Shown here in pieces: positions 48,310 to 62,859 of a stretch of 64,000 bases of DNA. Under the pieces are notes generated by a model. The model was not told where the DNA came from, made no database searches, and saw nothing but the letters and a program-made list of their open reading frames with translations. Source of the stretch: Actinomycetota bacterium (GTDB taxonomy: Bacteria; Actinomycetota; Geothermincolia; Geothermincolales; RBG-13-55-18); NCBI GenBank assembly GCA_014360685.1, contig JACIXB010000011.1, positions 259,261-323,260 of the forward strand, in the 5' to 3' direction. How positions within the stretch are numbered: the first letter of the stretch is position 1; each line of letters starts with the position of its first letter. Made by a program: the position numbers and the translations under genes.

Positions 48310-49413
48310 TCAGGCCCTGGAAGTGGCCGTACCGCGCATGGTCAACCCGATGACCACGCAGAAGACCAGGCCCACGATTATGGCCGCCGGACCCCATCCC
48401 CAGTTGGCCGGGTTGTTGGGATAGGGGGTGCCGGCGGTTGTGAAGTTATGGGCGAAGGCCGCCCCCACGATCATTCCCAGGACGAACACCGCGGAGTCAC
48501 CGTCGCCTTCCCCGGAGAGGAAAAGCTGGCGGCCGGGACACCCTCCGGCCAGGGCGAAACAGAGGCCGGCCAGCAGCATGCCCCCGAAGTTCAAGAGCTG
48601 GTTGGTGTGAGCCACGGGTTGCCCGGCGAATCCCCAGTGCGCCTGGCCGTAGATGAGGTTCATGATGAAAGCCCCGGCCAGCAGGGCCACCACCCCGCTC
48701 ATGAGGTGGAAGTCCCTCATGAGGATGACGTCCCGGATGGCGCCCATGGTGCAGAACCTGGTTCTCTGGGCGATGAAGCCGATGACCACGGCGATGCCCA
48801 GGGCCACCAGGTAGTTGGCATGCTGGGAGCCCGGACCCTCGGCGCTGAAGAAGGGAGCGCCCGAGGAGAGGACCGGCTTGATGATGAGGAGTAAAAGCAA
48901 GCCGAACATAATGAGGGGCATCACCGCTCCCACCGCCGGGCCGGCCTTCCGGCTGCGGCCCAGGTTGTAACCGCGCTTGATGAAGAGGACTCCCAGGGCC
49001 ACCCCGCTGGCCAGGCCCACCAGGGCCAGGATGGCGTTGCCGTCACCCCCCGCCAGGCGGAGGAGGGCCCTCCACGGGCATCCCAGGAATACCAGGGCCC
49101 CCACCATGGCGAAGAAGCCGAGCATGAAGCGGATGATGGGCGCGGAGCCCGCCCGGGCCCGGTATTCGCGGAAGAGGAAGGCGGCGATCATGGCCCCGAA
49201 GACGAAGCCGATTATCTCGGGACGGATATACTGCACCGGCGCGGCGCGGTGGAGCCCGAGGGAACCCGCAATGTCCCGTTCGAAGCAGGCCACGCAGATG
49301 CCCATGTTCTTGGGGTTGCCCAGCTTCTGCAGGGTGGAGGCCAGGATGCCGATGGAAAGCCCCACGGAGACCATGCCCCAACGCGATTGGAAGAACTTGT
49401 TTACCCGTTCCAT
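48310..49413 (-). CDS. yedE: YedE-family (YeeE/YedE) selenium/sulfur transporter
   Basis: Integral membrane protein of 367 residues with about ten helices. It has two half-similar parts with conserved cysteines: NMGICVACFERD and FLGCPWRALLRLAGGDGN in the first, TRFCTMGAIRDVILM and GGCPGRQLFLSGEGDGDS in the second. This is the pattern of the YeeE/YedE family, including thiosulfate importers and the YedE member linked to selenium use. With TusA-like and DUF3343 genes downstream, a selenium-related role is favoured. The start at 49413 follows GGGGGGTGAA; ten further residues are possible from 49440. Confidence 0.88.
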   Translation of the reverse strand: MERVNKFFQSRWGMVSVGLSIGILASTLQKLGNPKNMGICVACFERDIAGSLGLHRAAPVQYIRPEIIGFVFGAMIAAFLFREYRARAGSAPIIRFMLGFFAMVGALVFLGCPWRALLRLAGGDGNAILALVGLASGVALGVLFIKRGYNLGRSRKAGPAVGAVMPLIMFGLLLLLIIKPVLSSGAPFFSAEGPGSQHANYLVALGIAVVIGFIAQRTRFCTMGAIRDVILMRDFHLMSGVVALLAGAFIMNLIYGQAHWGFAGQPVAHTNQLLNFGGMLLAGLCFALAGGCPGRQLFLSGEGDGDSAVFVLGMIVGAAFAHNFTTAGTPYPNNPANWGWGPAAIIVGLVFCVVIGLTMRGTATSRA

Positions 49414-50318
49414 TTTCACCCCCCAGGTCCGGATCCTCACCCCGGCGTCGGCGGCGGTATGTCCCGAAAATCGCAGCTCATGGAAGAAAGCGCGGATGAT
49501 GCGCGAGCAACGACGGAAGACGGCCCCTGTTTTTCCGCGATATCGGATACATCACTCCTCAGTTACATCACTTCCTCAAATATTAATTTTATTTATAATA
49601 ATGATAAATTTTTAAAATGAATAGCATTTTTTACCGTCGGCGTCAAGGCGCAAAAAGAGGGTGGGACTCGAAGCTCCCGGTTTGCAGAAGTTATGCCGGG
49701 TTACCGCGTGTCGTGCCGGAAAAAAACTTGACAAAACGAAAAACGTTGTGGTTTCTTCATATAAAGACCTAGGAGAGTGGATTATATTGATCGTATCTTA
49801 GGGCTCGACTGCGGGCCCGAGGGAAGTTTTGTCTTCTCTTCGTATTTCATTTCAAGGCGCGCCGATGGAAGTACGGACGAGGCTTGGAAGGCGCAAAAAC
49901 CGGTTCATAAAAGGGAGTTAGAATTTTTAACTGAATTGGTAAAAATTGGCAATTAAAACTTGGATCGGAAGAAGGGAGGGCTTCGCATAAAGTCGTTCGG
50001 GTAAGGCTGACGCGGTGAGAGGCGAACCCGTAACGAGGACACGGAAAAGCAAGCGGCTCCGCTCGGCGCAGGGCGGAAACAGGGAAGGTACGAAGCCCGG
50101 CAAGAGGAAAATCGGATGGAAAGCGTGCATTCCCGCACGGAGCGGGTTCATGGGTTGGTTTATATGCCCGGGGAGAGGCGGGTGACGGTTTACCGCCGTG
50201 CGATCTCAGGAACCCCCCACTTTCCTAGGTCGGCCCACCCTCTCCGGGCATTTTTTCATAAATGATGGGTTATTCCCTTGCCGTTGAGAGAAGGAGTAGT
50301 TCAGGAGGTGAAAGGTTA
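49414..50318. other. Long AT-richer intergenic region with hydrogenase leader
   Basis: About 900 bases between divergent genes, notably less GC-rich than the rest. 49560-49620 is very AT-rich and probably holds the yedE promoter. TTGACA at 49728-49733 is a good -35 for rightward transcription, but its -10 at 17 bp is poor; TATAAA at 49760 is too far. The right end holds the foldable leader RNA (50164-50256). No protein gene is recognised; a cis-acting or small RNA is possible. Confidence 0.55.
50164..50256 (+). ncRNA. Structured leader RNA with terminator-like stem upstream of hydrogenase
   Basis: ATGCCCGG (50164-50171) pairs with CCGGGCAT (50244-50251), and AGAG (50174-50177) with CTCT (50240-50243), enclosing two smaller hairpins: GGCGG/CCGCC (50177-50181 with 50193-50197) and AGGAA/TTCCT (50208-50212 with 50222-50226). 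A run of six T follows the closing stem directly. The whole lies 63 bases upstream of the hydrogenase start. The form suggests a riboswitch, attenuator or small RNA with intrinsic terminator; no known class was recognised. Confidence 0.55.
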
Positions 50319-51431
50319 GTGGAAAGAAAGGGTGTGACCAGGCGCCAGTTCCTCAAGTACGCCGGCGCCACCGCGGCTCTTCTCGGGTTGAGCGAGTCCC
50401 TCATCCCGCAGATCGCCCATGCCCTGGAGGAGCTTTCCTCCGGCAAGCCGCCGGTGCTCTGGATCCAGGGGCAGAACTGCACGGGATGCTCCGTCTCGTT
50501 CCTGAACACCAATTACCCCATGGCCGCGGAGATCGTGCTGGACAAGCTCTCCGTGCGCTACCATCCCACGGTGATGGCCGCGGCGGGGGACAAAGCCTTC
50601 GGCGTGCTGGAGGAGACGGCCAAGGAGCTGGCCGGCAAGTACGTGCTGGTGGTGGAGGGGCCGGTGCCCACCGCGGAGGGCGGAGAGTACTGTACCTTCG
50701 GCCTGGAGAAGGAGACGGCTTCATTCAACGGTTATCAGCGCCGCAAGGACAAGCCCATGACCGCCTGGATGGAGGAGCTGGTCCCCGGGGCGGCGGCGGT
50801 GGTGGCCTTGGGCAACTGCGCCTCTTTCGGCGGCATCCCCGCGGCCAACGCCTCGGTGACTGGGACCAAGCCGGTGCAGGAGATCGTCAAGGAGATCGCC
50901 AAGGACAAGCCGGTGATCAACATCGGCGGCTGCCCCGCCCATCCCGACTGGTTCGTGGGCACGGTCCTGGATTATCTCATCAACAAGAGGGTGCCCGATC
51001 TGGACAGGCACAACCGGCCCAAGATGTTCTTCGGAAAGCTCATCCACGAGAACTGCGAGCGGCGGGCGGCCTTCGACGCCGGCCTTTTCCTGGAGGACTG
51101 GAACGACGACAACCCGGATATGAAGCTCTGCCTCTTCAAGCTGGGCTGCAAGGGCCCGGTTACCTACGCCGACTGCCCCACCCGGCGCTGGAACTCCGGG
51201 GTCAACTGGTGCGTGGGGGCCAACGCTCCCTGCCACGGGTGCGCGGAGCCGGCCTTCTACAAGGACCTCTCCCCTCTCTACGAGCCCCTACCGGAGGTCC
51301 ATTTCGCCGGCCTCACCCCCATGGTGGATACCCTGGGATGGATCGGAGCGGCGGCCACCGCCGCGGGCATCGGGGCTCATTACCTGTACAAGCAACTGGG
51401 AAAGAAGGAGCCCGAGGGAGGTGAGTCCTGA
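50319..51431 (+). CDS. hyaA: NiFe hydrogenase small subunit, Tat-exported, group-1-type
   Basis: Carries the iron-sulfur relay of a membrane-bound uptake hydrogenase facing outside. The 370-residue protein begins with a twin-arginine signal (TRRQFLKYAGATAALLGL, RR at 8-9). Proximal-cluster cysteines are in NCTGCS (54 and 57), GNCASFGG and GGCPAHPDW. Medial and distal ligands lie in HENCERR, CLFKLGCKGP, NWCVG and CHGCAEP. A hydrophobic stretch near residues 340-360 (GWIGAAATAAGIGAHYLY) anchors the C-terminus. The GTG start at 50319 follows AGGAGGTGAAAGG. It opens a tightly packed operon with large subunit, membrane protein, rnfC and rnfD. Confidence 0.95.
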   Translation: MERKGVTRRQFLKYAGATAALLGLSESLIPQIAHALEELSSGKPPVLWIQGQNCTGCSVSFLNTNYPMAAEIVLDKLSVRYHPTVMAAAGDKAFGVLEETAKELAGKYVLVVEGPVPTAEGGEYCTFGLEKETASFNGYQRRKDKPMTAWMEELVPGAAAVVALGNCASFGGIPAANASVTGTKPVQEIVKEIAKDKPVINIGGCPAHPDWFVGTVLDYLINKRVPDLDRHNRPKMFFGKLIHENCERRAAFDAGLFLEDWNDDNPDMKLCLFKLGCKGPVTYADCPTRRWNSGVNWCVGANAPCHGCAEPAFYKDLSPLYEPLPEVHFAGLTPMVDTLGWIGAAATAAGIGAHYLYKQLGKKEPEGGES

Positions 51432-53026
51432 TGGCCCAACTCATCAGCATAGACCCGGTAACCCGCATCGAGGGTCACCTCCGTATCGACGTGGAGGTGG
51501 AGAACGGCGTGGTCAAGGACGCCTGGTCCTCGGGGACCATGTTCCGCGGCATCGAGATGCTCCTCAAGGGCAAGCACCCCTTCGACGCCCAGCAGGTGAC
51601 GGAGCGCATCTGCGGCGTGTGCCCCCTGGTGCACGGGACCGCCGCCTCCTACAACCTGGACGACGCCCTGGGCGTGGATCTCCCGGACAATGCCCGCATC
51701 ATCCGCAACCTGTGCCTGGGCGCCAACTTCATCCAGTCCCACATCCTGCACTTCTACCACCTGGCCGCCCTGGACTACGTGGACGTCACCGCGGTGGCCA
51801 AGTACGCCGGGAACGATCCCGCCCTGGCGGCCCTGCGGGACAAGGTAGCGGTCCTGGCCAAGGCGGGGGACGTCTACCCCTTCCTGCCCCGCTACGAGTC
51901 CGACGACTACGTAAGCGACCCCGAGCTGGCGGCCGTCCTGGTGAGCCATTACGTGCAGGCCCTGGAGATGCGCAAGAAGGCCCAGGAGATGCTGTCCATC
52001 TTCTACGGCCGCATGCCCAGCTTCGTGGGGACGGTGCCCGGCGGGGTGACCGTGCATCCCACGGTCTCCAATATCGCCGCCTTCCGGGCCCGCCTCGACG
52101 AGCTGCGGGTGTGGATCGACAACGTATACGTCCAGGACATCCTCACCGTGGCCGGTGTATCCGCCTACGCCCCCTTCCTCACCGCGGGGGATTCCGGCGG
52201 CAACTACCTGGCCTACGGCGGGTTCGACCAGGACTCCAAGGGCGCGGAGAAGTTCCTGCCCCGGGGTTACATCACCGGGAACAACGTGGCCGCCGTCGGG
52301 GAGTTCGATGAAGCCAAGCTCACCGAGTCGGTAAAGCACTCCTGGTACAAGGACGAGTGCGAGTGGCTGCATCCCAAGGAGGGGAAGACCGAACCCGACG
52401 TGCACAAGGAGGGAGCCTACTCCTTCCTCAAGGCCCCGCGTTACGACGGGAAGCCCATGGAGGTGGGCCCCATGGCCCGCATGCTGGTGCTGGCCGGACT
52501 GGAGCTGGGGGGCAAGAGGAAGGAGAAGAAGCTCATGCCTCTCATCGAGAAGCTCGGACTGGCCTCCGCCGTGGACGCCTGTGTGCAGGCCGGCAAGTTC
52601 GGCATCCTGCCGCGACATGCCATGCGCGCCCTGGAGTGCAAGCTCCTGGCCGACGAGATGGACAAGTGGCTGGACGAGCTCAAGCCGGGCGAGAAGATAT
52701 GGGACAAGAAGGACATCCCGGGAGAGTCCTACGGCCGGGGCCTGGTGGAAGGGCCGCGGGGCGCCCTGGGGCACTGGATCCACATAAAGGGTAAGGTCAT
52801 CGAGAACTACCAGTGCATCGTGCCCACCACCTGGAACGCGGCTCCGCGGGATAAGAACGGCAACCGGGGTCCCATCGAGACCGCGCTCGTCGGATTGCCG
52901 GTCCCCGACCCGGAGAACCCCATCAACGTGGTGCGCTGCGTGAGGTCCTTCGACCCCTGCCTGGCCTGCGCCATCCATGTCATCCACCCCGAGCACAACG
53001 GCGTCAAGGAATTCCGCGTGGTCTGA
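51431..53026 (+). CDS. hyaB: NiFe hydrogenase large subunit
   Basis: Holds the NiFe(CN)2CO site that splits hydrogen. The 531-residue product has both nickel-ligand motifs: RICGVCPLVHG (Cys61, Cys64) and DPCLACAIH (Cys510, Cys513, His516). A 15-residue tail after His516 is the expected peptide removed by the maturation protease encoded at 56363. SIDPVTRIEGHLRI at the N-terminus is typical. It overlaps the small subunit gene by one base (TGATG), so they are translationally coupled. The protein has no signal of its own and would be co-exported with the small subunit. Confidence 0.96.
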   Translation: MAQLISIDPVTRIEGHLRIDVEVENGVVKDAWSSGTMFRGIEMLLKGKHPFDAQQVTERICGVCPLVHGTAASYNLDDALGVDLPDNARIIRNLCLGANFIQSHILHFYHLAALDYVDVTAVAKYAGNDPALAALRDKVAVLAKAGDVYPFLPRYESDDYVSDPELAAVLVSHYVQALEMRKKAQEMLSIFYGRMPSFVGTVPGGVTVHPTVSNIAAFRARLDELRVWIDNVYVQDILTVAGVSAYAPFLTAGDSGGNYLAYGGFDQDSKGAEKFLPRGYITGNNVAAVGEFDEAKLTESVKHSWYKDECEWLHPKEGKTEPDVHKEGAYSFLKAPRYDGKPMEVGPMARMLVLAGLELGGKRKEKKLMPLIEKLGLASAVDACVQAGKFGILPRHAMRALECKLLADEMDKWLDELKPGEKIWDKKDIPGESYGRGLVEGPRGALGHWIHIKGKVIENYQCIVPTTWNAAPRDKNGNRGPIETALVGLPVPDPENPINVVRCVRSFDPCLACAIHVIHPEHNGVKEFRVV

Positions 53027-53042
53027 GGAAGGGGGGGTACCC

Positions 53043-53543
53043 ATGAAGGAGAAGATCAAGGTACCCGGCCCGGCGAAGGCCATGTACGCCGTCTATCTAA
53101 GCGCGCTGGCGGTGTCCGTCTACGTCGGGTTCAACAACTTCCACCCCTTCCTCTCCGGGTGGAGGTATCCCTGGCAGATGAGCATCGCCAAGAACCTGGG
53201 GCTGGCCTCCATATGGGTAGTGGCCCTCACCGCCGGGGTGTATCTCTATTACAGCACCCTGGGCCGGCCCAAGGGATGGAACGAGCCGTTGGGGATCTTC
53301 CGCGCCGTGCTGGCCCTCCTGGCCATCTGGTACTTCCTAGTGAGCTTCGCCGTTTATGACCCCAACGGCTGGCTGCGCGGCCTGGTGGACGGGTTGGGCG
53401 GGATCGCCGGCACCTGGAAGGTGTACTCCGTGTTCCTGTGGATAGTGCTCCTCCTGAACGTCATCTACGTGTACGCCCGCTGGGCCAAGTCGGAGCGCTT
53501 CCCCCGCCTGCGGGCGGCTGGCGGCGGAGAGGGGGTGAAGTGA
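53043..53543 (+). CDS. Four-helix membrane protein of the hydrogenase operon
   Basis: A 166-residue integral membrane protein with four clear helices, at about residues 13-30, 50-68, 86-105 and 128-148. In classical uptake hydrogenases this position is filled by a cytochrome b with several haem-ligating histidines in its helices. Here only one histidine is present (NNFHPF), in a loop, so bis-histidine haem binding is not possible. It may instead anchor the hydrogenase or join it to the RnfC/RnfD module. ATG at 53043 is 16 bases after the large subunit stop; its stop overlaps the rnfC start. I do not recognise its family. Confidence 0.82.
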   Translation: MKEKIKVPGPAKAMYAVYLSALAVSVYVGFNNFHPFLSGWRYPWQMSIAKNLGLASIWVVALTAGVYLYYSTLGRPKGWNEPLGIFRAVLALLAIWYFLVSFAVYDPNGWLRGLVDGLGGIAGTWKVYSVFLWIVLLLNVIYVYARWAKSERFPRLRAAGGGEGVK

Positions 53544-54868
53544 TGTCCGGGAAGGCCACCTACAAGACCTTCAAGGGAGGCATCCATCCCCCCTACCACA
53601 AGGAGTTGGCCTCGGGGAAGGCCATCCGCCCGGCGCCGGTGCCCGCGGAGGTGTTCATCCCCCTCCAGCAGCATATCGGCGCTCCCAACGAGCCCCTGGT
53701 CAACCCCGGGGACCGGGTGGAGCTGGGGCAGAAGATCGGGTCCAGCGAGGCCTTCGTCTCCGCTCCGGTGCACGCCTCGGTAGCGGGCACGGTGAAGGAG
53801 ATAGCCGAGGTCACTGGTTTCACCGGGGCCAAGGTGAAGTGCGTGGTGATCACCCCGGATGCGGAGCAGCCGGGGTTCGCCCGAAAGGACCGGGACATCA
53901 CCGCCCTCTCCGACCAGGAGGTCAGGGACATCGCCCGCGAGGCGGGCCTGGTGGGAATGGGGGGAGCCGCCTTCCCCACCCACGTCAAGCTAACCCCGCC
54001 CAAGGACAAGCCGGTGGACACGGTGATCATCAACGCCTGCGAGTGCGAGCCCTTCCTCACCTGCGACCACCGGGTCATGCTGGAGAGGCCCCATGACCTG
54101 GTGCAGGGGTTGAAGCTGCTCATGCGGGCGGTGAACGCCAAGCGGGGCATAATCGGCATCGAGGCCAACAAGATGGACGCCGTGGACGCCGTGCGCGGGG
54201 CGGCCAAGGGCGAAGCGGGCATCGAGGTGGACATCCTGGAGGTCAAGTACCCGGAGGGCGCGGAGAAGATGCTCATCTACGCCCTCACCGGCAGGAAGGT
54301 GCCCCCGGGTAAGCTCCCCTCCGAGGTGGGCTGCCTGGTCCAGAACGTGGGCACGGCGGTGGCCCTCTACGAGGCCTGCGCCTGGGGCAAGCCCCTCTAC
54401 GAACGGGTGCTCACCGTCACCGGGCAGGGGATCAAGGAGCCGGCCAACCTGCTGGCCCGGGTGGGGACGCCCATCTCCACCCTCATCGAGGCCTGCGGGG
54501 GCTTCGTCGGCCGGCCGGGGAAGGTGATCATGGGCGGCCCCATGACCGGTTGGGCCCAACCGGACACCTCGGCCCCGGTGGTCAAGGGGACCTCGGGCAT
54601 CGTGGTCCTCACCCCCGACCTGGTGGACGTGGGGACCGAGGAGGAGTGCGTGCGTTGCGGGAAGTGCGTGGACGTCTGCCCCATGTTCCTCCTCCCCAAC
54701 TTCATCGTCCAGGCGGTGAAGAAGGGACAGTGGGACCGGGCGGAGATGTGGGGGGCCCTGGACTGCTTCGAGTGCGGATGCTGCTCCTTCACCTGTCCCG
54801 CTTACATCCCGCACGTGGACTACGTGCGCAAGGCGAAGGCCGAGATCGCGGCCTTGAAGAGGAGATAG
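53543..54868 (+). CDS. rnfC: RnfC-like NADH/ferredoxin-linked electron transfer subunit
   Basis: A 441-residue cytoplasmic protein related to Rnf subunit C and to the Nqo1/NuoF flavoprotein core. FKGGIHPPYHKE starts it as in RnfC. AGLVGMGGAAFPTHVKL and NACECEPFLTCDHRVM form the FMN/NADH-binding part. A C-terminal ferredoxin domain has two four-cysteine clusters, ECVRCGKCVDVCP and CFECGCCSFTCP. It overlaps the previous gene by one base (TGATG). In a normal Rnf complex it accepts electrons from NADH or gives them up. Here it follows hydrogenase genes without RnfA, B, E or G. Confidence 0.92.
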   Translation: MSGKATYKTFKGGIHPPYHKELASGKAIRPAPVPAEVFIPLQQHIGAPNEPLVNPGDRVELGQKIGSSEAFVSAPVHASVAGTVKEIAEVTGFTGAKVKCVVITPDAEQPGFARKDRDITALSDQEVRDIAREAGLVGMGGAAFPTHVKLTPPKDKPVDTVIINACECEPFLTCDHRVMLERPHDLVQGLKLLMRAVNAKRGIIGIEANKMDAVDAVRGAAKGEAGIEVDILEVKYPEGAEKMLIYALTGRKVPPGKLPSEVGCLVQNVGTAVALYEACAWGKPLYERVLTVTGQGIKEPANLLARVGTPISTLIEACGGFVGRPGKVIMGGPMTGWAQPDTSAPVVKGTSGIVVLTPDLVDVGTEEECVRCGKCVDVCPMFLLPNFIVQAVKKGQWDRAEMWGALDCFECGCCSFTCPAYIPHVDYVRKAKAEIAALKRR

Positions 54869-54874
54869 GGGGTG

Positions 54875-56023
54875 ATGAAAGTGGCGGACAAGATGCTGGT
54901 CACCGTCTCTCCTCACCTGCACAAGAAGGACGAGACCATTCAGCGCGCCATGAAGGACGTGCTCATCGCGCTGACCCCGGCCGCGGTCTGGGCCCTGGTG
55001 GTCTTCGGGTTCAACGTGGTGTACATCCTGGCCGTGAGCTGCATAACCGCGGCCCTCTCCGAGGTGGTCATGCGCAAGATCATGAGGCGCAAGCCCACCC
55101 TCACGGATTACAGCGCCATGGTGACCGCGGTGCTCTTCGCCTTTCTCCTCCCGCCGACCACCCCGCTGTGGGTGGTGGCCATCGGGGCCTTCCTGGCGGT
55201 GGGAATCGGCAAGGAGCTCTTCGGGGGCTTGGGTAAGAACATCTTCAACCCGGCCATCTTCGCCCGGGTGTTGCTCTGGTTCTCGCCCCTGGCCGTGTAC
55301 ACCACCAAGTTCGTGAAGCCCTTCTTCTGGAAGGCTTCCGGGTTCTTCACCCCCATCGCCACCAGCATCAACGAGGGGGCGGTGGGCAGGGCGGTCTACA
55401 AGACCATGGCCGGAAACCCGGTGGCCGACCTGACCACAGCTGCGACTCCGCTTTCCCTGCTCAAGTCGGGGAAGTGGCTCCCGGACATGGTGGCCGGCCC
55501 CACCCCGGTGGGCGCCACCTGGTTGAACTCAGGAGGCAAGCCTTCCTTTTGGTCCCTTTTCATCGGGGCCAAGAGCGGGTGCATCGGAGAGGTGTGCATC
55601 CTGGCCCTGCTCATCGGGGCGGCTTATCTCCTCTGGCGCCGCACCATCGACTGGCGCATCCCGGTGGGGATTATCGGCACCTTCTTCCTGCTCACCCTGG
55701 TCACCTGGTACCACCCCATATACAACCTCTTCTCCGGGGGGTTGTTCCTGGGAGCCTTCTTCATGGCCACCGACTGGGTGACCAGCCCGGTGACCAGGCG
55801 GGGGAAGTGGATCTTCGCCGTGGGTATCGGGGCCACCGTGTTCATCATGCGGTTCTGGAGCCTGAGGCCGGAGGGCGTGGCCATAGCCATCTTCCTGTGG
55901 AACATCGGCACCCTGGTCATAGACCGCTACATCGCGGTGCCCAAGTTCGGGGAGGTGGGAGCCAAGGCCTTCAACCGGCTCCCCGTCCTGCCTGAACCGG
56001 CCCCGGAGCCGGTCAAGAAATAA
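54875..56023 (+). CDS. rnfD: RnfD-like membrane flavoprotein subunit
   Basis: Integral membrane protein of 382 residues with about nine helices, family RnfD/NqrB. The region DLTTAATPLSLLK near residue 190 matches the site at which RnfD/NqrB carry FMN covalently on a threonine (consensus S/T-[GA]-A-T). VSPHLHKKDETIQRAMKDVL at the N-terminus and GGLGKNIFNPAIFARVLL also fit. RnfD is part of the ion-pumping route in Rnf. It follows rnfC by six bases; GTG at 54872 is an alternative start. A strong terminator follows, closing the operon. Confidence 0.92.
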   Translation: MKVADKMLVTVSPHLHKKDETIQRAMKDVLIALTPAAVWALVVFGFNVVYILAVSCITAALSEVVMRKIMRRKPTLTDYSAMVTAVLFAFLLPPTTPLWVVAIGAFLAVGIGKELFGGLGKNIFNPAIFARVLLWFSPLAVYTTKFVKPFFWKASGFFTPIATSINEGAVGRAVYKTMAGNPVADLTTAATPLSLLKSGKWLPDMVAGPTPVGATWLNSGGKPSFWSLFIGAKSGCIGEVCILALLIGAAYLLWRRTIDWRIPVGIIGTFFLLTLVTWYHPIYNLFSGGLFLGAFFMATDWVTSPVTRRGKWIFAVGIGATVFIMRFWSLRPEGVAIAIFLWNIGTLVIDRYIAVPKFGEVGAKAFNRLPVLPEPAPEPVKK

Positions 56024-56060
56024 AAAAAGGAACCCCCGGTTCACCCGGGGGTTCTTTTTT
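56024..56060 (+). terminator. Intrinsic terminator of hydrogenase-rnf operon
   Basis: GAACCCCCG and CGGGGGTTC arms with a short loop, preceded by a run of A and followed by seven T, directly after the rnfD stop. The A and T runs extend the stem. Confidence 0.95.
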
Positions 56061-56362
56061 TATGGGGTCAGGTCTTGAAATTTGATACCCCGGTGGGTAT
56101 ATCCGGTCGGGTTTTATCCCGGCGAGGGCTGACGCTGGTCTGTCCGGAGCGGCTTACCCGCGGGCAGTCTACGGGCCCCGGGATTCGTGGTCCTGGGGGT
56201 TTCCATGCGGCTTGGCCAGCCCGGAAGGTAAGCGTTTGCAGGCGGATATGGATCGCGTTCCCGGCCGTGGAAGATCGTGCGATAACCCTTGGTGGGAAAA
56301 AATCGCCCCATTAGCCCTTCGACGGCCGGAAATCTACAATGGGATGGAATTTGGGAGGCGCC
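56061..56362. other. Intergenic region between rnfD terminator and hyaD
   Basis: About 300 bases holding the REP-like element copy. No clear promoter and no gene is seen. Confidence 0.4.
56064..56091 (+). repeat. REP-like dispersed element, copy 3
   Basis: Identical over 28 bp to 373-400 and related to 43403-43430. It lies just beyond the operon terminator. Here, unlike in the other two copies, it is not joined to a stop codon. Confidence 0.78.
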
Positions 56363-56842
56363 GTGTCTCGTTACGTGGTCATCGGGCTAGGTAATCTCCT
56401 TCACGGGGATGACGGCCTGGGCGTCCATGCCGTGCGGCGCCTCAGGGAGCTCAAGGAGGGGCTTCCCGCGGACGTGGAACTCTTGGAGGGCGGTGTCCTG
56501 GGATTGGACCTCCTCCCCTACCTGGAGGGGAAGGAGAAGGCGGTCTTCATCGACGCCGTGGACGCCGGCGAGGAGCCCGGGGCGGTGTTCCGCTTTTCTC
56601 CCCACGAGGTGCTCCGCGCCGGAACCCCGCCCCCCGTTTCCCTTCACGACCTGGGGCTCTACGAGCTGGTTGGCGCCGCTAAATTGCTGGAGCAGTGTCC
56701 CCGCGAGATAATAATCATCGCCGTGCAGGTCAAGAGCCTGGACCTGGGGGAAGGCCTTTCCGAGGAAGTGGAAGCGGCGCTGCCCGCCGTGTGCCGCCTG
56801 GTGGAGGAGGAGTTGAGGGGTGAGGCGCGGCCTCCCTCCTAA
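56363..56842 (+). CDS. hyaD: NiFe hydrogenase maturation protease (HyaD/HupD-like)
   Basis: Cuts the C-terminal tail of the large subunit once nickel is in place. The 159-residue protein has GLGNLLHGDDGLGVHAV near the N-terminus, FIDAVDAGEEPG, and SLHDLGL, which carry the three metal ligands (acidic, acidic, histidine) of this family. The GTG start at 56363 follows GGGAGGCG; an in-frame ATG at 56339 has no site. It lies 340 bases after rnfD and before hypF. Confidence 0.92.
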   Translation: MSRYVVIGLGNLLHGDDGLGVHAVRRLRELKEGLPADVELLEGGVLGLDLLPYLEGKEKAVFIDAVDAGEEPGAVFRFSPHEVLRAGTPPPVSLHDLGLYELVGAAKLLEQCPREIIIIAVQVKSLDLGEGLSEEVEAALPAVCRLVEEELRGEARPPS

Positions 56843-57030: not shown

Positions 57031-57130
57031 ACGGCGGTGGGATCGAATGGAAGGCGCGCCTCCCGGAGGCGTCCCAACCCCTGGAAAACCCGCTTGCGGA
57101 AAGGAAAACGGCGGTGGGATGGAATGGAAG
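57031..57130. repeat. 23-bp direct repeat duplicating the hypF start region
   Basis: ACGGCGGTGGGAT(C/G)GAATGG and AAG occur at 57031-57053 and 57108-57130 with one difference. The second copy contains the hypF ATG (57124); the first has an ATG at 57047 opening a 32-codon frame that ends just inside hypF in another frame. Confidence 0.7.
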
Positions 57131-59640
57131 ACGGCAGGGTGCTGAGCATCGAGGTGAGGGGGATCGTCCAGGGGGTAGGTTTCCGGCCCTTTATCTACCG
57201 GCTGGCCCGCGAGCACCGGCTGGCGGGATGGGTGGAGAACACCCCCGAGGGGGCACGGATCCTGGCCCGCGGCGGAAGCCGTGAACTGGAGGCCTTCTTG
57301 GAAGATATTACCAGGAAGGCGCCTCCCGCGGCGGTTATCGAGGAGGTGCGCACCGCGGAGGTGGAAGGACCGGGAGGCGCCGACCTCGCCGCCGGGGGAT
57401 TTCGCATCCGCGAGAGCTCCCGCGCGGGTGAGAAGACAGCCCTGGTATCCCCGGACCTGGCCACCTGTCCCGACTGCCGGCGGGAATTGTTCGACCCCCG
57501 GGACCGACGCTACCGCTACCCCTTCATCAACTGCACCAACTGCGGTCCCCGTTTCACCATCATCGCCGGCATCCCCTACGACCGCCCCCTGACCTCCATG
57601 GCCAAGTTCGCCATGTGTCCGGAATGCCAACGGGAGTACAACGACCCCGCCGACCGCCGCTACCATGCCCAGCCCAACGCCTGCCCGGCCTGCGGCCCCC
57701 GTCTCTGGCTGGAGGACGACAAGGGGGAGGTGGTTCCCGGCGACCCCGTCATCCAGGCGGCCCGTGCCCTGCGGGAGGGGAAGATAGTGGCCCTGAAGGG
57801 GCTGGGAGGTTTCCAGCTGGCCTGCGACGCCACCAGCGACGAGGCCGTAGACCGCCTGCGGGAGCGCAAGCGCCGCTACGCCAAGCCCCTGGCGGTCATG
57901 GTGGGAGGCCTGGAGGAAGCGGGGAAGTATTGCCGGGTGAGCGAGGAGGAGATGGAGCTCCTGGCCTCGCCTCGGGCCCCCATCGTGCTGCTCCCGGAGA
58001 AGGAGGACTCCCCTCTCTCGCGGCAGGTGGCGCCCGGCCTGAGGAACCAGGGCCTCTTCCTTCCCTACACCCCCATGCACCACCTCCTCCTGGCGGAGGC
58101 GGGAATCCCCCTGGTGATGACCAGCGGTAACGTGAGCGAGGAGCCCATCGCCAAGGAAAACGAGGAGGCGCGTCGCCGTCTGGCGGGGATCGCCGATTAC
58201 TTCCTTTTACACGACCGGGACATCCTGGTGAGATACGACGATTCGGTGACCTCCGTCCTCGAGGGGCGCGAATATATCCTGCGGCGGGCGCGCGGTTATG
58301 CCCCGTACCCGGTGGTCCTGGCCCGGGAAAGCCGGGTGGAGGTCCTCGCCGTGGGGGCGGAGCTCAAGAACACCTTCTGTTTCCTCCGCGGAAGGCACGC
58401 CTTTTTGAGCCAGCACATAGGGGACCTGGACAACGCGGAGACCCTGCGCCACTTCGAGGAGGCCTTGGAGTCCATGCGGTGCCTGTTCTCCCTTCGGCCG
58501 GAGGTGGTGGCCCACGACCTGCACCCGGATTACCTGTCCACCCAGCTGGCCGCGGATTTCGGCCTTCCCCGCGTTGCCGTGCAGCACCATCACGCCCACA
58601 TCGCGAGCTGCCTGGCGGACAACGGGGAGAGCGGCAGGGTGATCGGCGTATCCTGGGACGGCACGGGCTACGGCACGGACGGCACGGTGTGGGGCGGGGA
58701 GTTCCTCCTCTGTGACGAGGCGGATTTCGAGCGCGCCGGGCACCTTTACGCCGTCCCCATGCCCGGGGGGGAGGTCTGTGTCCGGGAACTGGACCGCATG
58801 GCCTTCGGGGTACTGTGGGAAGCCTGCGGCGGCGAGGAGGCGTCGGTTTTAGAAATATATTCCAGGACCTTCGCGGGGGCTGAGGCCGGCGATGAGGGCG
58901 GCACCGAGGGCGGCGGTTGGCGGCCCAGCGCCGCCTCTCCCCCGGGGGGGACGGTCCCCGATGGGGCTCGTCGCCGGGCGGCTACGGCCGCATCCCACGG
59001 GTCCCGGCCTGGGAACAACCGAGGGGCGGAGGCGGTGGGCCGGGATGCCGATCCCGTGAGGACGGATGGGGGAGACAGGGCCGCCGCCCTGGCGGCCATG
59101 GTCAGGGGAGGCTTCAACACGCCCCGCACCTCCAGCGCCGGACGCCTCTTCGATGCCGTGGCCGCCCTCCTGGGCTTGAGGACTCGCGCTTTCTACGAGG
59201 GCCAGGCGGCCTGCGAGCTGGAGGCCCTGGCCTCCACGGCGACCCCCTACCTGCGGGATAGGGCCTATCCAGTGGATATCCGGGAAGGAGAGCGCTCCCT
59301 GGTCTGGGATACCAGGTCCCTGGTCCTCGCCGTCCTGGAGGACATGCGCCGCGGCTCCGAACCGCCGGCCGTCGCCGCCCGGTTTCACGCCGCCCTGGCC
59401 AGGGGCATGGTGGAGGTGTGCCGCATCCTCAGGGAGGGATCGGGCATCACCCGGGTGGCCCTGAGCGGAGGCGTTTTCCAGAACCGCCTGCTCACCCCGC
59501 TGGCGGCGGAACTCCTCGAGGAAGAGAGCTTCCGGTGTCTGCTGCACCGCAGGGTGCCCTGCAACGACGGCGGCATCTCCCTGGGCCAGGCGGTGGCGGC
59601 GGCGCGGCGCCGGGAGAGATTGGAGGGCATGGATGATTAA
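57124..59640 (+). CDS. hypF: Carbamoyltransferase HypF
   Basis: Makes the cyanide ligands of the NiFe site from carbamoyl phosphate, with HypE. Domains in order: acylphosphatase (VRGIVQGVGFRPFIYRLA), two zinc-finger pairs (CPDCRREL...CTNCGPRF; CPECQREY...CPACGP), YrdC-like (KGLGGFQLACDAT) and the Kae1-like C-terminal part (HHHAHIASCLAD, VSWDGTGYGTDG, ALSGGVFQNRLL). At 838 residues it is longer than the usual 750-780, owing to a low-complexity insert of about 65 residues (roughly 585-650, rich in G, A, R, P). The start at 57124 could instead be GTG 57139. Confidence 0.95.
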   Translation: MEDGRVLSIEVRGIVQGVGFRPFIYRLAREHRLAGWVENTPEGARILARGGSRELEAFLEDITRKAPPAAVIEEVRTAEVEGPGGADLAAGGFRIRESSRAGEKTALVSPDLATCPDCRRELFDPRDRRYRYPFINCTNCGPRFTIIAGIPYDRPLTSMAKFAMCPECQREYNDPADRRYHAQPNACPACGPRLWLEDDKGEVVPGDPVIQAARALREGKIVALKGLGGFQLACDATSDEAVDRLRERKRRYAKPLAVMVGGLEEAGKYCRVSEEEMELLASPRAPIVLLPEKEDSPLSRQVAPGLRNQGLFLPYTPMHHLLLAEAGIPLVMTSGNVSEEPIAKENEEARRRLAGIADYFLLHDRDILVRYDDSVTSVLEGREYILRRARGYAPYPVVLARESRVEVLAVGAELKNTFCFLRGRHAFLSQHIGDLDNAETLRHFEEALESMRCLFSLRPEVVAHDLHPDYLSTQLAADFGLPRVAVQHHHAHIASCLADNGESGRVIGVSWDGTGYGTDGTVWGGEFLLCDEADFERAGHLYAVPMPGGEVCVRELDRMAFGVLWEACGGEEASVLEIYSRTFAGAEAGDEGGTEGGGWRPSAASPPGGTVPDGARRRAATAASHGSRPGNNRGAEAVGRDADPVRTDGGDRAAALAAMVRGGFNTPRTSSAGRLFDAVAALLGLRTRAFYEGQAACELEALASTATPYLRDRAYPVDIREGERSLVWDTRSLVLAVLEDMRRGSEPPAVAARFHAALARGMVEVCRILREGSGITRVALSGGVFQNRLLTPLAAELLEEESFRCLLHRRVPCNDGGISLGQAVAAARRRERLEGMDD

Positions 59641-60248
59641 CTCCGGGACGGCGGGGATGGCGGCCGCCCCCATGCTTGCGCCGCTTAGCGGGGGCGAGGG
59701 CGAGGATGCGGGGCGTGAGTCGGTACCACGCGGATAAGGGATGGAGGCACGTTGCGAGGGGACCGGTGGGGAAAAGCGGAAGAACGGTTATGGTTATAAT
59801 ATCTCCGTCACCTGCCGGACCTTTCCGGGACCATAGACGATAACGGCCGGTGCCGGGAACGGAAAGCCCTTTCGCCGGACGTTTTTCACGAAAGGAAAGC
59901 GAGCGGATCCGGGGACCCTCGCGGAACGGGGAGGAACCAGCCGATCCCAGGGAGGAGGACAACCCGGCCGAACCGTGACTCCGGCGGTGGTGAGACCCGG
60001 GAAACGTGTCGTGCGAGAGGGTTTGCGTTTGCTTGACTGCGATCGCCCCGTGACGGGACCGGCCCCTAACGGAGGCGGGGAATGGAGGCCGTCCCCCGGT
60101 GCGGCCATCCAATAAAGGTCGGTCATGGAAGGGACGGGGCTCTTGGACGGGTGGAGGTGGATTCATCCCGGTAGGTGGTGTACGCCTGCTTTGATGTGGA
60201 CCCGGGCAGGCGAACGAAGGGTCTTGAGCGACAACGGGAGGACGAAGG
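59641..60248. other. Intergenic region upstream of hypC
   Basis: About 610 bases. TATAAT at 59795-59800 may start a hypCDE transcript. No gene is recognised; hypA and hypB are not present here. Confidence 0.45.
59795..59800 (+). promoter_or_regulatory. Candidate -10 element for hypCDE
   Basis: TATAAT in an AT-rich patch about 450 bases before hypC. No -35 is clear, and the leader would be long. Confidence 0.35.
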
Positions 60249-60482
60249 ATGTGCCTGGCCATACCCGCTGAGGTTGTGGAGCTACGGGAAAACGAAACGG
60301 CGCTGGTGGAGATAGGCGGGGTCCGCAAGGTGGTGAGCCTCATGCTCATGGACGGCGTGGAGGCCGGAGATTACGTGCTGGTCCATGCCGGGTTCGCCAT
60401 CGAGAGGGTGGACCGCGAGGAGGCGGAGAGGACGCTGGCCGTCCTGGAGGAGGCCGCCGAGTACGGACCGCTGTATGAGTAG
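60249..60482 (+). CDS. hypC: Hydrogenase maturation chaperone HypC
   Basis: A 77-residue chaperone that holds the Fe(CN)2CO unit with HypD and brings it to the large subunit. It has the hallmark MCLAIPAEVVE, where Cys2 becomes N-terminal after methionine removal, and the later GDYVLVHAGFAIERVD with the conserved histidine. An ACGAAGG... site precedes the ATG. hypD follows 15 bases downstream. Confidence 0.96.
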   Translation: MCLAIPAEVVELRENETALVEIGGVRKVVSLMLMDGVEAGDYVLVHAGFAIERVDREEAERTLAVLEEAAEYGPLYE

Positions 60483-60497
60483 AGGAAAGAGGGCGGG

Positions 60498-61592
60498 TTG
60501 AGGTACCTGGACGAATACCGCTCCCCCGCGCTCCTGCGGGGCCAGCTCCGCGCCATAAGGGAGCTTTCCGCGAGCGCGGTCCTCATGGAGGTGTGCGGGA
60601 CCCACACCATGGCCATCTCCCGCTCCGGGCTGCGCCCCCTCCTGGCCCCCGAGGTGGACCTGGTCTCCGGCCCGGGTTGCCCGGTCTGCGTGACCTCGGA
60701 AAGGGACGTGGGGCGGGCCGTGGCCCTGGCCTCCCTGGAGGGGGTTACGCTGGCCACCTTCGGGGACATGGTTCGCGTCCCGGGCCCGCAGGGGACGCTC
60801 CTGGAAGCTTCTTCCAGGGGAGCCACGGTGAGGGTGGTGTACTCCCCGCTGGACGCCCTGGCCCTGGCCAGGGAGAACCCGGACCGCCGGGTGGTCTTTC
60901 TGGGGGTGGGCTTCGAGACCACCGCCCCCACGGTGGCCGCGGTCGTGCTGCGCGCCAGGGAAGAGGGGCTGAAGAATTTCTTCCTCCTCAGCCTGCACAA
61001 GCTCATCCCTCCCGCCCTGAGGGCCCTGGTCGATATGGAAGATTTCTCCATAGACGGGTTCCTCCTCCCCGGTCACGTCAGCGTGGTCCTGGGGACGGAG
61101 GCTTACGGTTTCCTGCCCCGGGAGCACGGCATCCCCTGCGTTGTCTCCGGCTTCGAGCCCGCGGACATCCTGCGCGCCGTGTACCTGCTTTTGCGCATGA
61201 AGGTGGAGGGGAAGCCGGAGGTGGTCAACGAGTACTCCCGGGCGGTGAGGCCGCAAGGAAACCGGAAGGCGCGGGAGACCATGTATCGCGTGTTCCGGGA
61301 GGCGGACGCGGAGTGGAGGGGGCTGGGGGTGATCCCGGGAAGCGGCCTGGAGCTCCGCGAGGAGTTCCGGGACCTGGACGCCGGGACCTGGGACCTGGAG
61401 GTTCCCGAGGTCGGCGAGAGAAGCGGTTGCCGGTGCGGGGAGATCCTGCGCGGAAGGATAAAGCCGCCGGAATGCCCTCTCTTCGCCCGGGCCTGCACCC
61501 CCGACTCCCCGTTCGGGCCCTGCATGGTCTCCAGCGAGGGGACCTGTGCCTCATATTTCCTGTACGAGGGAGGGGAAGGGAGCGGTGGCTGA
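60498..61592 (+). CDS. hypD: Hydrogenase maturation protein HypD
   Basis: Iron-sulfur scaffold for assembly of Fe(CN)2CO. The 364-residue protein has MEVCGTHTMAISRSGLR, GPGCPVCVTS, and the C-terminal cysteine region GCRCGEILRG...CPLFARACTP that carries the [4Fe-4S] ligands. The start is TTG at 60498, with GAGGAAAGAGGG upstream. It is co-transcribed with hypC; hypE follows after about 250 bases. Confidence 0.96.
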   Translation: MRYLDEYRSPALLRGQLRAIRELSASAVLMEVCGTHTMAISRSGLRPLLAPEVDLVSGPGCPVCVTSERDVGRAVALASLEGVTLATFGDMVRVPGPQGTLLEASSRGATVRVVYSPLDALALARENPDRRVVFLGVGFETTAPTVAAVVLRAREEGLKNFFLLSLHKLIPPALRALVDMEDFSIDGFLLPGHVSVVLGTEAYGFLPREHGIPCVVSGFEPADILRAVYLLLRMKVEGKPEVVNEYSRAVRPQGNRKARETMYRVFREADAEWRGLGVIPGSGLELREEFRDLDAGTWDLEVPEVGERSGCRCGEILRGRIKPPECPLFARACTPDSPFGPCMVSSEGTCASYFLYEGGEGSGG

Positions 61593-61839
61593 GGCGGCGG
61601 ACTCGGGCCGCGGCGAGGATGGATCCCACATCCGGACCTCATGGAGGGTGCGTCCTCCCACCTTCACCCGGGCGGACCGGAGAGGGGGTTCTCCCGGATC
61701 ATGATGGCGTGGAGTTGAGGGCCCCGGGGGTCGGCGGGACGCGGTGCCGCCGGAGGAAGACGCGATGCCACCGGGTATATGCGCGGATCCCGGCGGTCAC
61801 GGGAAACGGGAGCGGCCGACACGGCGGATAAGGACCGAT

Positions 61840-62859
61840 ATGGCGGATAAAGTGATCACCATGGCCCACGGCGCGGGGGGCTCCCGCATGCTGGACCTCC
61901 TGGAGGAGGTGGTCTATCCCGCCTTGGGAAGCAGCGCGTGCCCGGACGCCGAGGACGCCGCGGCGCTGGAGGTGCCCGGCGGCGAACCCGGCTTCCGGCT
62001 GGCCTGCACCACCGATTCCTTCGTGGTCAAGCCCCTCTTTTTCCCTGGGGGGGACATCGGGAAACTGGCGGTGTGCGGCACGGTGAACGACCTTTCCATG
62101 CGCGGGGCAAGGCCCCTATACCTGACCATGGGGCTCATCCTGGAGGAGGGCCTGTCCTTCCAGGTCCTGGAAGATATCCTCCGCTCCGCCGGCCGGTGGG
62201 CGGAGGAGGCCGGGGTGCGCTTGGTGGCCGGGGATACCAAGGTGGTGGAAAGGGGCGCCGCGGATGGCCTGTACATCAACACCTCCGGGGTGGGCCTCAT
62301 TCCGCCGGGAAGGGAGGTATCCATCCACGGGGCACGGCCCGGCGACGCGCTCCTTGTAAGCGGTTGCGTGGGCGATCACGAGACGGCCGTCCTCAGCCGG
62401 AGGGAAGGTTTCGATTTCAAGGTGGACGTGGAATCGGACTGCGCCCCCCTCAACGGGCTGGTGGAGGCCATGCTGGAGGCGGGAGAGGTGCACGCCTTGA
62501 GGGACCCCACCCGGGGAGGTCTGGCCGCCTCCCTCAAGGAGATGGCCTCCGCTTCCGGGGTGGCCCTGGAGGTGAGGGAGGAGCAGGTGCCGGTGCGGGA
62601 AGGGGTTCGTGCCTTCTGCGAGATGCTGGGGCTGGACCCCCTGCTCCTGGCCAACGAGGGCAAGCTGCTGGCCGCCGTCCCCGAGGAGTCCCTTCTCGCC
62701 ATCCTGGAGGCCGTGCGCTCCCACCCCCTGGGGAGGGAGGCCGCGGTGATCGGCCGCGTGGTGGAGGGGCGCCGGGGCGAGGTGGCCGTCCTCACCCCGC
62801 TGGGTTCCTCCCGCCTCCTGCGCATGCCCTCCGGCGAGCACTTCCCCCGCATCTGTTGA
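61840..62859 (+). CDS. hypE: Hydrogenase maturation protein HypE
   Basis: Dehydrates a carbamoyl group on its C-terminal cysteine to thiocyanate, the cyanide donor. The 339-residue AIR-synthase-fold protein starts with MAHGAGGSRMLDLL, has DSFVVKPLFFPGGDIGKLAV and VAGDTKVVERG, and ends in EHFPRIC, with the essential terminal cysteine. The ATG at 61840 is preferred; the open frame upstream is not HypE-like. Last gene of the maturation cluster. Confidence 0.96.
   Translation: MADKVITMAHGAGGSRMLDLLEEVVYPALGSSACPDAEDAAALEVPGGEPGFRLACTTDSFVVKPLFFPGGDIGKLAVCGTVNDLSMRGARPLYLTMGLILEEGLSFQVLEDILRSAGRWAEEAGVRLVAGDTKVVERGAADGLYINTSGVGLIPPGREVSIHGARPGDALLVSGCVGDHETAVLSRREGFDFKVDVESDCAPLNGLVEAMLEAGEVHALRDPTRGGLAASLKEMASASGVALEVREEQVPVREGVRAFCEMLGLDPLLLANEGKLLAAVPEESLLAILEAVRSHPLGREAAVIGRVVEGRRGEVAVLTPLGSSRLLRMPSGEHFPRIC

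Follow-up and report, generated by a model that had tools for sequence, protein, structure and literature searches.

The window analysed here is a 64,000-nucleotide stretch (positions 259,261 to 323,260 of contig JACIXB010000011.1, termed C3) from the 2.6-Mb, 80% complete draft genome (G000) of a bacterium of the class Geothermincolia, Actinomycetota. It carries five genes in the order hydrogenase small subunit, hydrogenase large subunit, a 166-residue membrane protein (TM166), RnfC and RnfD, a combination referred to below as half-Rnf (Table 1). The genes overlap by one base, are separated by 16 bases, overlap by one base again, and are separated by six bases (with GTG at 54872 as an alternative start of RnfD), and reading frames and hairpin detection agree with the first-pass annotation of this DNA on genes, coordinates, spacing and strong terminator. 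No rnfA, rnfB, rnfE or rnfG was found in the operon, nor does it hold a cytochrome or further electron-carrier gene. The lack of RnfA, B, E and G, also remarked on at first pass, is a property of the operon; a complete rnfCDGEAB sits elsewhere in the genome.

Table 1. Features of the half-Rnf operon and its surroundings (positions within the window).
Feature	Position	Strand	Basis
Structured 5' leader of the operon, conserved hairpin and T-run; 18-base core CCCCACTTTCCTAGGTCG at 50215-50232	50164..50256	+	relatives' leaders, consensus fold
[NiFe] hydrogenase small subunit, Tat-exported, 370 aa	50319..51431	+	PF01058, PF14720, TAT_signal, TIGR00391
[NiFe] hydrogenase large subunit, 531 aa	51431..53026	+	PF00374, NF033181; RICGVC and DPCLAC metal-binding motifs
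TM166, four-helix membrane protein, 166 aa	53043..53543	+	no family match; AlphaFold2 model
RnfC, half-Rnf clade, 441 aa	53543..54868	+	TIGR01945, motif conservation, tree
RnfD, half-Rnf clade, 382 aa	54875..56023	+	TIGR01946, solved RnfD alignments, conservation, tree
Intrinsic terminator hairpin, 10 pairs, end of operon	56030..56054	.	hairpin detected and sequence read
Presumed HyaD-like hydrogenase maturation protease, first of the maturation block	56339..56842	+	reading frame
Presumed maturation genes HypF (57037-59640), HypD (60498-61592) and HypE (61744-62859)	57037..62859	+	reading frames

The small subunit bears a twin-arginine translocation (Tat) signal, scores 319 bits with TIGR00391 (cut-off 179.5), and has periplasmic NiFe(Se) hydrogenase small subunits as its closest solved chains. 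The large subunit (NF033181, 722 bits; cut-off 600) contains two CxxC nickel motifs, and the nickel site is a cysteine, not a selenocysteine.

RnfC and RnfD also exceed the cut-offs of their models, with 537 bits for TIGR01945 (cut-off 246) and 279 bits for TIGR01946 (cut-off 207), respectively. RnfC retains the GMGGAAFPTH motif and two four-cysteine clusters. RnfD retains Thr191 within DLTTAAT, the site of covalent flavin mononucleotide (FMN), together with Asn125 and Asp300 of the riboflavin site. The FMN/NADH (reduced nicotinamide adenine dinucleotide) motif and clusters of RnfC and the covalent-FMN threonine region of RnfD, all picked out at first pass, are thereby confirmed. Across the related operons described below, the riboflavin Asn and Asp and the FMN Thr are invariant in all 43 half-Rnf RnfD sequences, and the eight cluster cysteines are complete in each half-Rnf RnfC row that spans them. 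According to the portion of PMC11889175 available, electrons in the Rnf complex of Acetobacterium woodii follow a U-shaped path from ferredoxin through RnfB, RnfA/E and RnfG on the outside to the RnfD FMN (Thr156, outer side), and then return through the RnfD riboflavin (Asn123 and Asp249, inner side), two RnfC clusters and the RnfC FMN to NAD; a similar route is described in the part of PMC9588780 available. Half-Rnf keeps the RnfD-RnfC arm of this path intact at the residues tested, and by sequence the exported dehydrogenase takes the place of RnfG. Two further cysteines were observed in the FMN domain of RnfC: Cys166 occurs in 19 of 21 hydrogenase-type, 19 of 20 formate-type and one of 31 canonical rows, and Cys174 in all 41 hydrogenase- and formate-type rows versus six of the 31 canonical ones.

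TM166 matched no Pfam or NCBIfam family at E ≤ 0.001, and a lax Pfam scan of 14 members gave scattered weak matches only. It has a single histidine, His34, which is kept in 22 of 23 distinct family sequences (Arg in the other); seven of the 23 bear extra scattered histidines, with no second conserved one. The AlphaFold2 model, built from 14 sequences, comprises four helices (predicted local distance difference test score 76.7, predicted template modelling score 0.69), in line with the four-helix, one-histidine protein first described. When the model was compared with 350,542 PDB chains using Foldseek, the top three matches were the cytochrome b of E. coli hydrogenase-1 (HyaC) and the fourth was FdnI, with E-values of 5.3e-3 to 0.39 and none below 0.001. 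Structural realignment (VIA) gave HyaC Z-scores of 13.2 and 12.9, followed by a designed bundle (12.0), cytochrome b6 (11.9) and FdnI (11.3), values that helical bundles as a class can reach. Profile comparison of TM166 with HyaC (hhalign) was not significant (E 0.15, probability 0.41%), and a profile search of the PDB returned chance rhodopsin matches and no significant kinship to HyaC. In the non-significant hhalign register, Tyr15, Tyr128 and Tyr142 of TM166 stand opposite His22, His184 and His198 of HyaC; these tyrosines are conserved across the family, two being invariant and Tyr128 nearly so. In five aligned HyaC-type sequences, His22, His63, His184, His198 and also His125 are invariant, the first four of which we take to be the haem ligands. 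TM166 lacks the invariant haem-ligand histidines of the HyaC/FdnI cytochrome b family. The earlier statement that this protein cannot be the usual di-haem cytochrome b is therefore right for the haems, but its predicted fold resembles that same cytochrome b most. A wholly novel protein was also considered and is too strong a description, as the predicted fold is closest to HyaC. Based on the modelled fold and the place of the gene after the large subunit, we prefer to regard TM166 as a likely haem-less descendant of HyaC, though with a good deal of reserve.

The same genome holds a twin operon (L012) approximately 60 kb away, encoding FdhA, FdhB, RnfC and RnfD, whose RnfC is 77% and RnfD about 40% identical to those of the window. 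The twin FdhA is a Tat-exported, FdnG-like selenocysteine protein (TIGR01553, 1080 bits; cut-off 814), and FdhB is FdnH-like with a C-terminal membrane helix (TIGR01582, 203 bits, under the cut-off of 335). No FdnI/cytochrome b gene is present in the twin operon, RnfC beginning right after FdhB. An ApbE-like flavin transferase gene lies 3 kb past it (111 bits, under the model cut-off of 498). An in-frame TGA within the AR-I/L-U-H motif of the formate dehydrogenase was found in 12 of 14 loci examined. Alpha subunits of the formate dehydrogenase type from L149:5589 onward (G022) and L151:5385 onward (G006) have no in-frame TGA in the stretch read and are thus probably not selenocysteine enzymes. 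The complete rnfCDGEAB lies on contig C8 (L013), and its RnfC and RnfD are only 48% and 38% identical to those of the window.

A third type of locus, ordered FdhB-like subunit, RnfC, RnfD, Tat-exported molybdoenzyme and TorD-like chaperone, was found in three genomes, G010, G020 (start cut off) and G028 (pieces on separate contigs). Its enzyme is closest to thiosulfate reductase PhsA, under the cut-off (396 of 694 bits). In G020, the third-type RnfC (L166:3842-4570, a fragment of 243 residues) shares 98% identity with the formate-type RnfC encoded in the window's genome, versus only 57% for its RnfD (L166:2867-3838, on the same contig as L042). To judge by the sequences, this RnfC looks to have been swapped or homogenised by gene conversion.

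To survey the distribution, GTDB named-species genomes were scanned with an alignment of the two RnfC proteins (window and twin), giving 97 relatives, of which the best 80 loci were kept. Among these 80, 27 were Actinomycetota loci with 64-91% identity (Candidatus Solincola, Ca. Geothermincola and relatives), comprising 13 hydrogenase operons in the same order, 12 formate-dehydrogenase operons and two of the third type, both cut by contig ends. The other 53 showed about 53% identity or less, and 52 of them lie beside at least one of rnfG, E, A and B, the exception (L082) being a stretch that ends soon after RnfD. The scan relied on two peptide patterns, so distant half-Rnf loci in other phyla could go unseen. 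Within the distances searched, rnfG, E, A and B were not found beside half-Rnf RnfC rows, and they are present in the canonical operons, the context of which was examined, within the class, in four genomes (G000, G002, G011 and G022). All 31 genomes of the class contain a half-Rnf-type RnfC (62-100% identical), some only as a fragment at a contig end, and 26 contain a canonical-type RnfC (46-50% identical). In G003, G004, G013, G014 (99% complete) and G016, no canonical-type RnfC was found at E ≤ 1e-100, with the module present. TM166 occurs in 24 of the 31 genomes, doubtfully in G005 (63 residues within a long frame), and directly precedes a half-Rnf-type RnfC in the remaining 23; formate-type operons occur in at least 18. 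Among 396 Actinomycetota genomes drawn, matches at E ≤ 1e-150 were confined to 29 genomes of the class, with none in the 365 genomes outside it, up to four candidates per genome being scored. The first-pass suggestion that the gene order be sought in other genomes is thus answered by hydrogenase adjacency in 23 of the 31, so the arrangement is no one-off.

Phylogenetic analysis placed all 45 RnfC rows of the module in one clade (support 100/100) opposite 31 canonical rows, including four from the class's own Rnf, and all 43 RnfD rows of the module in one clade (100/99) opposite 30 canonical rows. The canonical rows had been thinned (31 of 55 RnfC and 30 of 54 RnfD used), and the trees leave out RnfC under 230 residues, RnfD under 250 residues or 60 bits, identical copies and rows lacking a class label. 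The proposal that this RnfC/RnfD pair might form a clade of its own thus agrees with both trees, in which it falls outside the canonical Rnf rows used. The full operon found when rnf genes were sought elsewhere in the genome encodes a different RnfC and RnfD, and hydrogenase adjacency recurs across the class. The RnfD clade divides by partner into 20 hydrogenase-type rows plus a lone pair (100/99), 20 formate-type rows (99/87) and two third-type rows (100/100). The RnfC tree is not split in this way: formate-type rows are paraphyletic, and third-type rows are nested among them. A single origin for each partner type was therefore rejected as a general account, since the RnfD tree agrees with it and the RnfC tree does not. 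As the RnfC rows are not sorted by partner, gene conversion or RnfC swapping is likely, and our reading of the two trees is that RnfD may have adapted to the enzyme it contacts, with RnfC as an interchangeable NAD module.

In the 30 class genomes searched, no hydrogenase cytochrome b (PF01292, Ni_hydr_CYTB) was found over the cut-off, with a weaker match in one. For menaquinone-type synthesis genes, neither MqnC nor MenD exceeded its cut-off in any of the 30, with weaker matches in nine and 29 genomes, respectively; the latter we take for other thiamine-diphosphate enzymes. NuoH-type proteins were over the cut-off, weakly, in eight genomes and in none of the 17 of the window's order, and the CdhC (acetyl-CoA synthase) model was over the cut-off in all 30, strongly in 26. 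By gene content, members of the class resemble Wood-Ljungdahl organisms; most have Rnf, and no known quinone route was found in them, the search for cytochromes being confined to hydrogenase cytochrome b. The lack of MenD and MqnC over the cut-offs argues against quinone as acceptor, and RnfC has an NAD site, not a ferredoxin site, which makes NAD the likely acceptor. Of the three acceptors first proposed, NAD+ is therefore favoured by the RnfC site, and ferredoxin and quinone are disfavoured.

We consider it probable (roughly 0.7) that the five gene products form one membrane complex, a half-Rnf hydrogenase, acting as an electrogenic wire between H2 outside and cytoplasmic NAD(H), with no quinone or ferredoxin. 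The exported hydrogenase would split H2 outside the cytoplasmic membrane, and electrons would leave through the iron-sulfur clusters of the small subunit and enter the RnfD FMN, the site where RnfG docks in normal Rnf. From there they would cross by way of the RnfD riboflavin to RnfC, which would deliver them to NAD+ in the cytoplasm. The side of Rnf that handles ferredoxin and pumps ions (RnfG, RnfA/E and RnfB) would be dispensable, and the task of TM166 would be to keep the hydrogenase in contact with RnfD. Formate dehydrogenase and, in some relatives, the third molybdoenzyme would be served by the module too, and a bacterium with neither a known quinone route nor a hydrogenase cytochrome b could couple outside H2 or formate to inside NAD(H). 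The central idea of the first-pass annotation, that electrons from H2 oxidised outside enter an Rnf-like path, is supported in this form and fits the separate clades, the adjacency in 23 of 31 genomes and the retained cofactor residues.

Because protons would be released outside and electrons moved inside, the reaction from H2 to NAD+ would build membrane potential (two charges per H2), and that from NADH to H2 would consume it. The relevant potentials are -414 mV for H2, -432 mV for formate, -320 mV for NAD and -402 mV for thiosulfate. Between H2 or formate and NAD, about 0.1 V would be left, which would balance a membrane potential of roughly the same size. When H2 abounds, NADH formation would conserve energy, and when it is scarce the potential would push electrons from NADH towards H2 or formate. 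The direction taken in the cell probably depends on H2 and formate levels. Thiosulfate would fit the same energetic frame if the third enzyme is of the PhsA type. We lean slightly towards a broader view of half-Rnf as a plug-in of general use. Operating electrogenically and without quinone, it may wire different extracytoplasmic oxidoreductases near -0.4 V to NAD(H) and so make respiratory complexes of them; these would include hydrogenase, formate dehydrogenase and perhaps an enzyme resembling thiosulfate reductase. The hydrogenase version would retain a haem-less ghost of the ancestral cytochrome b.

Several observations weigh against the half-Rnf hydrogenase as proposed. Ten of 20 formate-type RnfD (eight of them with Gln instead), as well as four of 20 hydrogenase-type and five of 30 canonical RnfD, lack a Ser/Thr three residues before the FMN Thr, a position presumably belonging to the flavin-transferase motif. 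The C-terminal segment of the small subunit is weakly hydrophobic, none of 30 reaching the 1.5 Kyte-Doolittle threshold. The named relatives are uncultured and represented by metagenome assemblies, with no studied strain among them. UbiA-type prenyltransferases were over the cut-off in 24 of the 30 genomes, which leaves room for quinone by some unknown route, and G002 has a lone RnfC-RnfD pair without a neighbouring hydrogenase. The UbiA proteins would suit a quinone reductase in which RnfD passes H2 electrons to a membrane quinone in the manner of NqrB, an RnfD homolog and the quinone-binding subunit of Nqr, with RnfC structural like NqrA (PMC11889175, portion available). With MqnC and MenD under their cut-offs throughout, and with RnfC keeping the FMN/NAD motif and both clusters while NqrA lost its cofactors (same portion), such a role appears very improbable. 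The lone pair would likewise suit mere neighbours on one transcript, the hydrogenase feeding a soluble or extracellular acceptor and RnfC/RnfD being a separate enzyme; we give this even less credence, as three kinds of exported oxidoreductase are found alongside the pair, RnfD sorts by partner, and the window operon offers no other electron carrier. The lone pair itself (L150:6990-9553, minus strand) is of the hydrogenase type, and its RnfC stands on a long branch.

Somewhat better placed, but still unlikely, is a half-Rnf that also pumps sodium, in which RnfD would move Na+ during electron flow and the complex would be an H2:NAD+ oxidoreductase and Na+ pump at once. Passage of Na+ through RnfD near Asp248/Asn124, Asn90 and Glu185 is proposed in the part of PMC9588780 available, and the equivalents of the A. 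woodii riboflavin residues Asn123/Asp249 and of Glu185 are kept in all 43 half-Rnf RnfD. At the position of Asn90, in contrast, 42 of the 43 carry an aliphatic residue (Leu, Ile or Val) and one carries Thr; of 30 canonical RnfD, 26 carry Asn, Thr or Cys. The difference counts as one evolutionary change, not 43. The sodium path of Rnf is itself disputed: PMC9588780 places it in RnfD, and PMC11889175, in the portion available, sees no Na+ route there and gives pumping to RnfA/E. Since evolution dropped RnfA/E here and retained RnfD, whether half-Rnf pumps sodium would help to settle the dispute. Alternatively, the hydrogenase and its own RnfC/RnfD might borrow canonical RnfA, B, E and G in a hybrid complex linking H2, ferredoxin and NAD, as the complete rnfCDGEAB of this genome and the canonical-type RnfC of 26 genomes would allow. 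However, the module is kept in the five genomes, including G014, in which no canonical-type RnfC was found, although RnfA/B/E/G were not searched there, and the four canonical operons examined each have their own divergent RnfC and RnfD; we regard this hybrid as improbable. The half-Rnf hydrogenase wired directly to NAD(H) is our preferred reading.

The operon is preceded by a structured leader. Its consensus fold (10 sequences) has 21 pairs, five of which are altered at both bases in one or more sequences, and the covariation term is only -0.08 kcal/mol. Comparison of the leader with Rfam gave nothing at the gathering score and chance-level matches at E 1 and 4.2. Allowing up to one mismatch, 23 copies of the 18-base element were counted, spread over 12 of the 30 class genomes, and none of the reversed control. 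Eleven copies lie in hydrogenase-operon leaders, 11 at formate-dehydrogenase starts in the opposite orientation, and one elsewhere near a third-type operon. All 12 genomes belong to the window's family; G019 and G024 of the same family and 16 genomes outside it have none. The leader core is the reverse complement of the formate dehydrogenase ribosome-binding region (L012:5256-5274 in the window's genome), and in all 10 genomes with both copies the leader can pair with that region over 18-26 contiguous bases, G-U allowed. This complementarity suggests either antisense control of formate dehydrogenase or a common DNA operator. G023 has the formate copy only and G021 the hydrogenase copy only, which argues for an operator or for an element with a role of its own. 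Under either reading of the leader, the two operons look regulatorily linked. The odd copy (L219:1501-1518, contig C14 of G028) lies downstream of the third-type molybdoenzyme and chaperone, and no long reading frame starts there.

Downstream of RnfD lies a maturation block, in which the first gene is presumed HyaD-like from its position and sequence, and the others are presumed Hyp genes from their sequence. Homologs of the HyaD-like and Hyp proteins come after RnfD in most hydrogenase loci long enough to show them. Divergent from the operon, a YedE-family putative selenium transporter is encoded at 48310-49440 on the minus strand (TIGR04112, 460 bits; cut-off 200), which fits the selenocysteine of the formate dehydrogenase of this genome.

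The half-Rnf operon is real and class-wide, a modular combination of known parts whose arrangement was not found described in the literature searched. In that literature, seen in part and with most subscription papers and all preprints outside its coverage, neither hydrogenase nor formate dehydrogenase operons with RnfC-RnfD alone were found described, nor was anything of the kind found by taxon name. In the parts of PMC5736913 and PMC6349859 available, "rnfCD" denotes rnfCDGEAB, and PMC7325909, in the text examined, describes group 1 hydrogenases from related clades of actinobacteria, with no link to RnfC-RnfD. If the half-Rnf hydrogenase works as proposed, it would be a respiratory complex from H2 (and, with its twin, formate) to NAD+ that needs no quinone, cytochrome or ferredoxin, and would explain the use of exported hydrogenases by bacteria without a known quinone route. 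As a general plug-in, half-Rnf would give acetogen-like bacteria an additional way of conserving energy chemiosmotically and represent a natural Rnf without the RnfA/E pump. It would also indicate that Rnf is divisible and that its NAD-side arm is reusable with new partners. Run backwards, the complex would let membrane potential drive the formation of H2 and formate from NADH, which is a long-standing problem of syntrophy.

Compared with the Rnf complex (RnfCDGEAB, ferredoxin:NAD+ oxidoreductase), half-Rnf shares RnfC and RnfD homologous along their full length, with FMN, riboflavin and [4Fe-4S] positions equal, but has an exported hydrogenase or formate dehydrogenase in place of RnfG, A, E and B, and RnfC and RnfD clades of its own. 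With group 1 [NiFe] hydrogenases (HyaABC/HupSLC), it has in common a Tat-exported small subunit and a large subunit, a four-helix membrane protein as the third gene and, as in the E. coli order, a HyaD-like protease later; it differs in adding RnfC and RnfD, and no di-haem cytochrome b or known quinone route was found. The twin operon resembles formate dehydrogenase N (FdnGHI) in its selenocysteine FdnG-like subunit and its FdnH-like subunit with a C-terminal membrane helix, whereas RnfC-RnfD stand at the place of the FdnI cytochrome b. Reuse of an RnfC relative as the NADH module of another oxidoreductase is described in the available part of PMC9430772 for the MetVF-RnfC2 methylenetetrahydrofolate reductase, a heterotrimer without RnfD, whereas half-Rnf includes RnfD, so the module spans the membrane. 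PrdC is another RnfC relative, and its model matches the RnfC of the window, under the cut-off. The chain of Sporomusa ovata from H2 through cytochrome b and ubiquinone to methylene-tetrahydrofolate reductase (PMC9430772, part available) likewise combines outside H2 oxidation, inside reduction and scalar protons, but where it employs cytochrome b and quinone, half-Rnf would employ the flavins and iron-sulfur clusters of RnfD and RnfC to reach NAD+.

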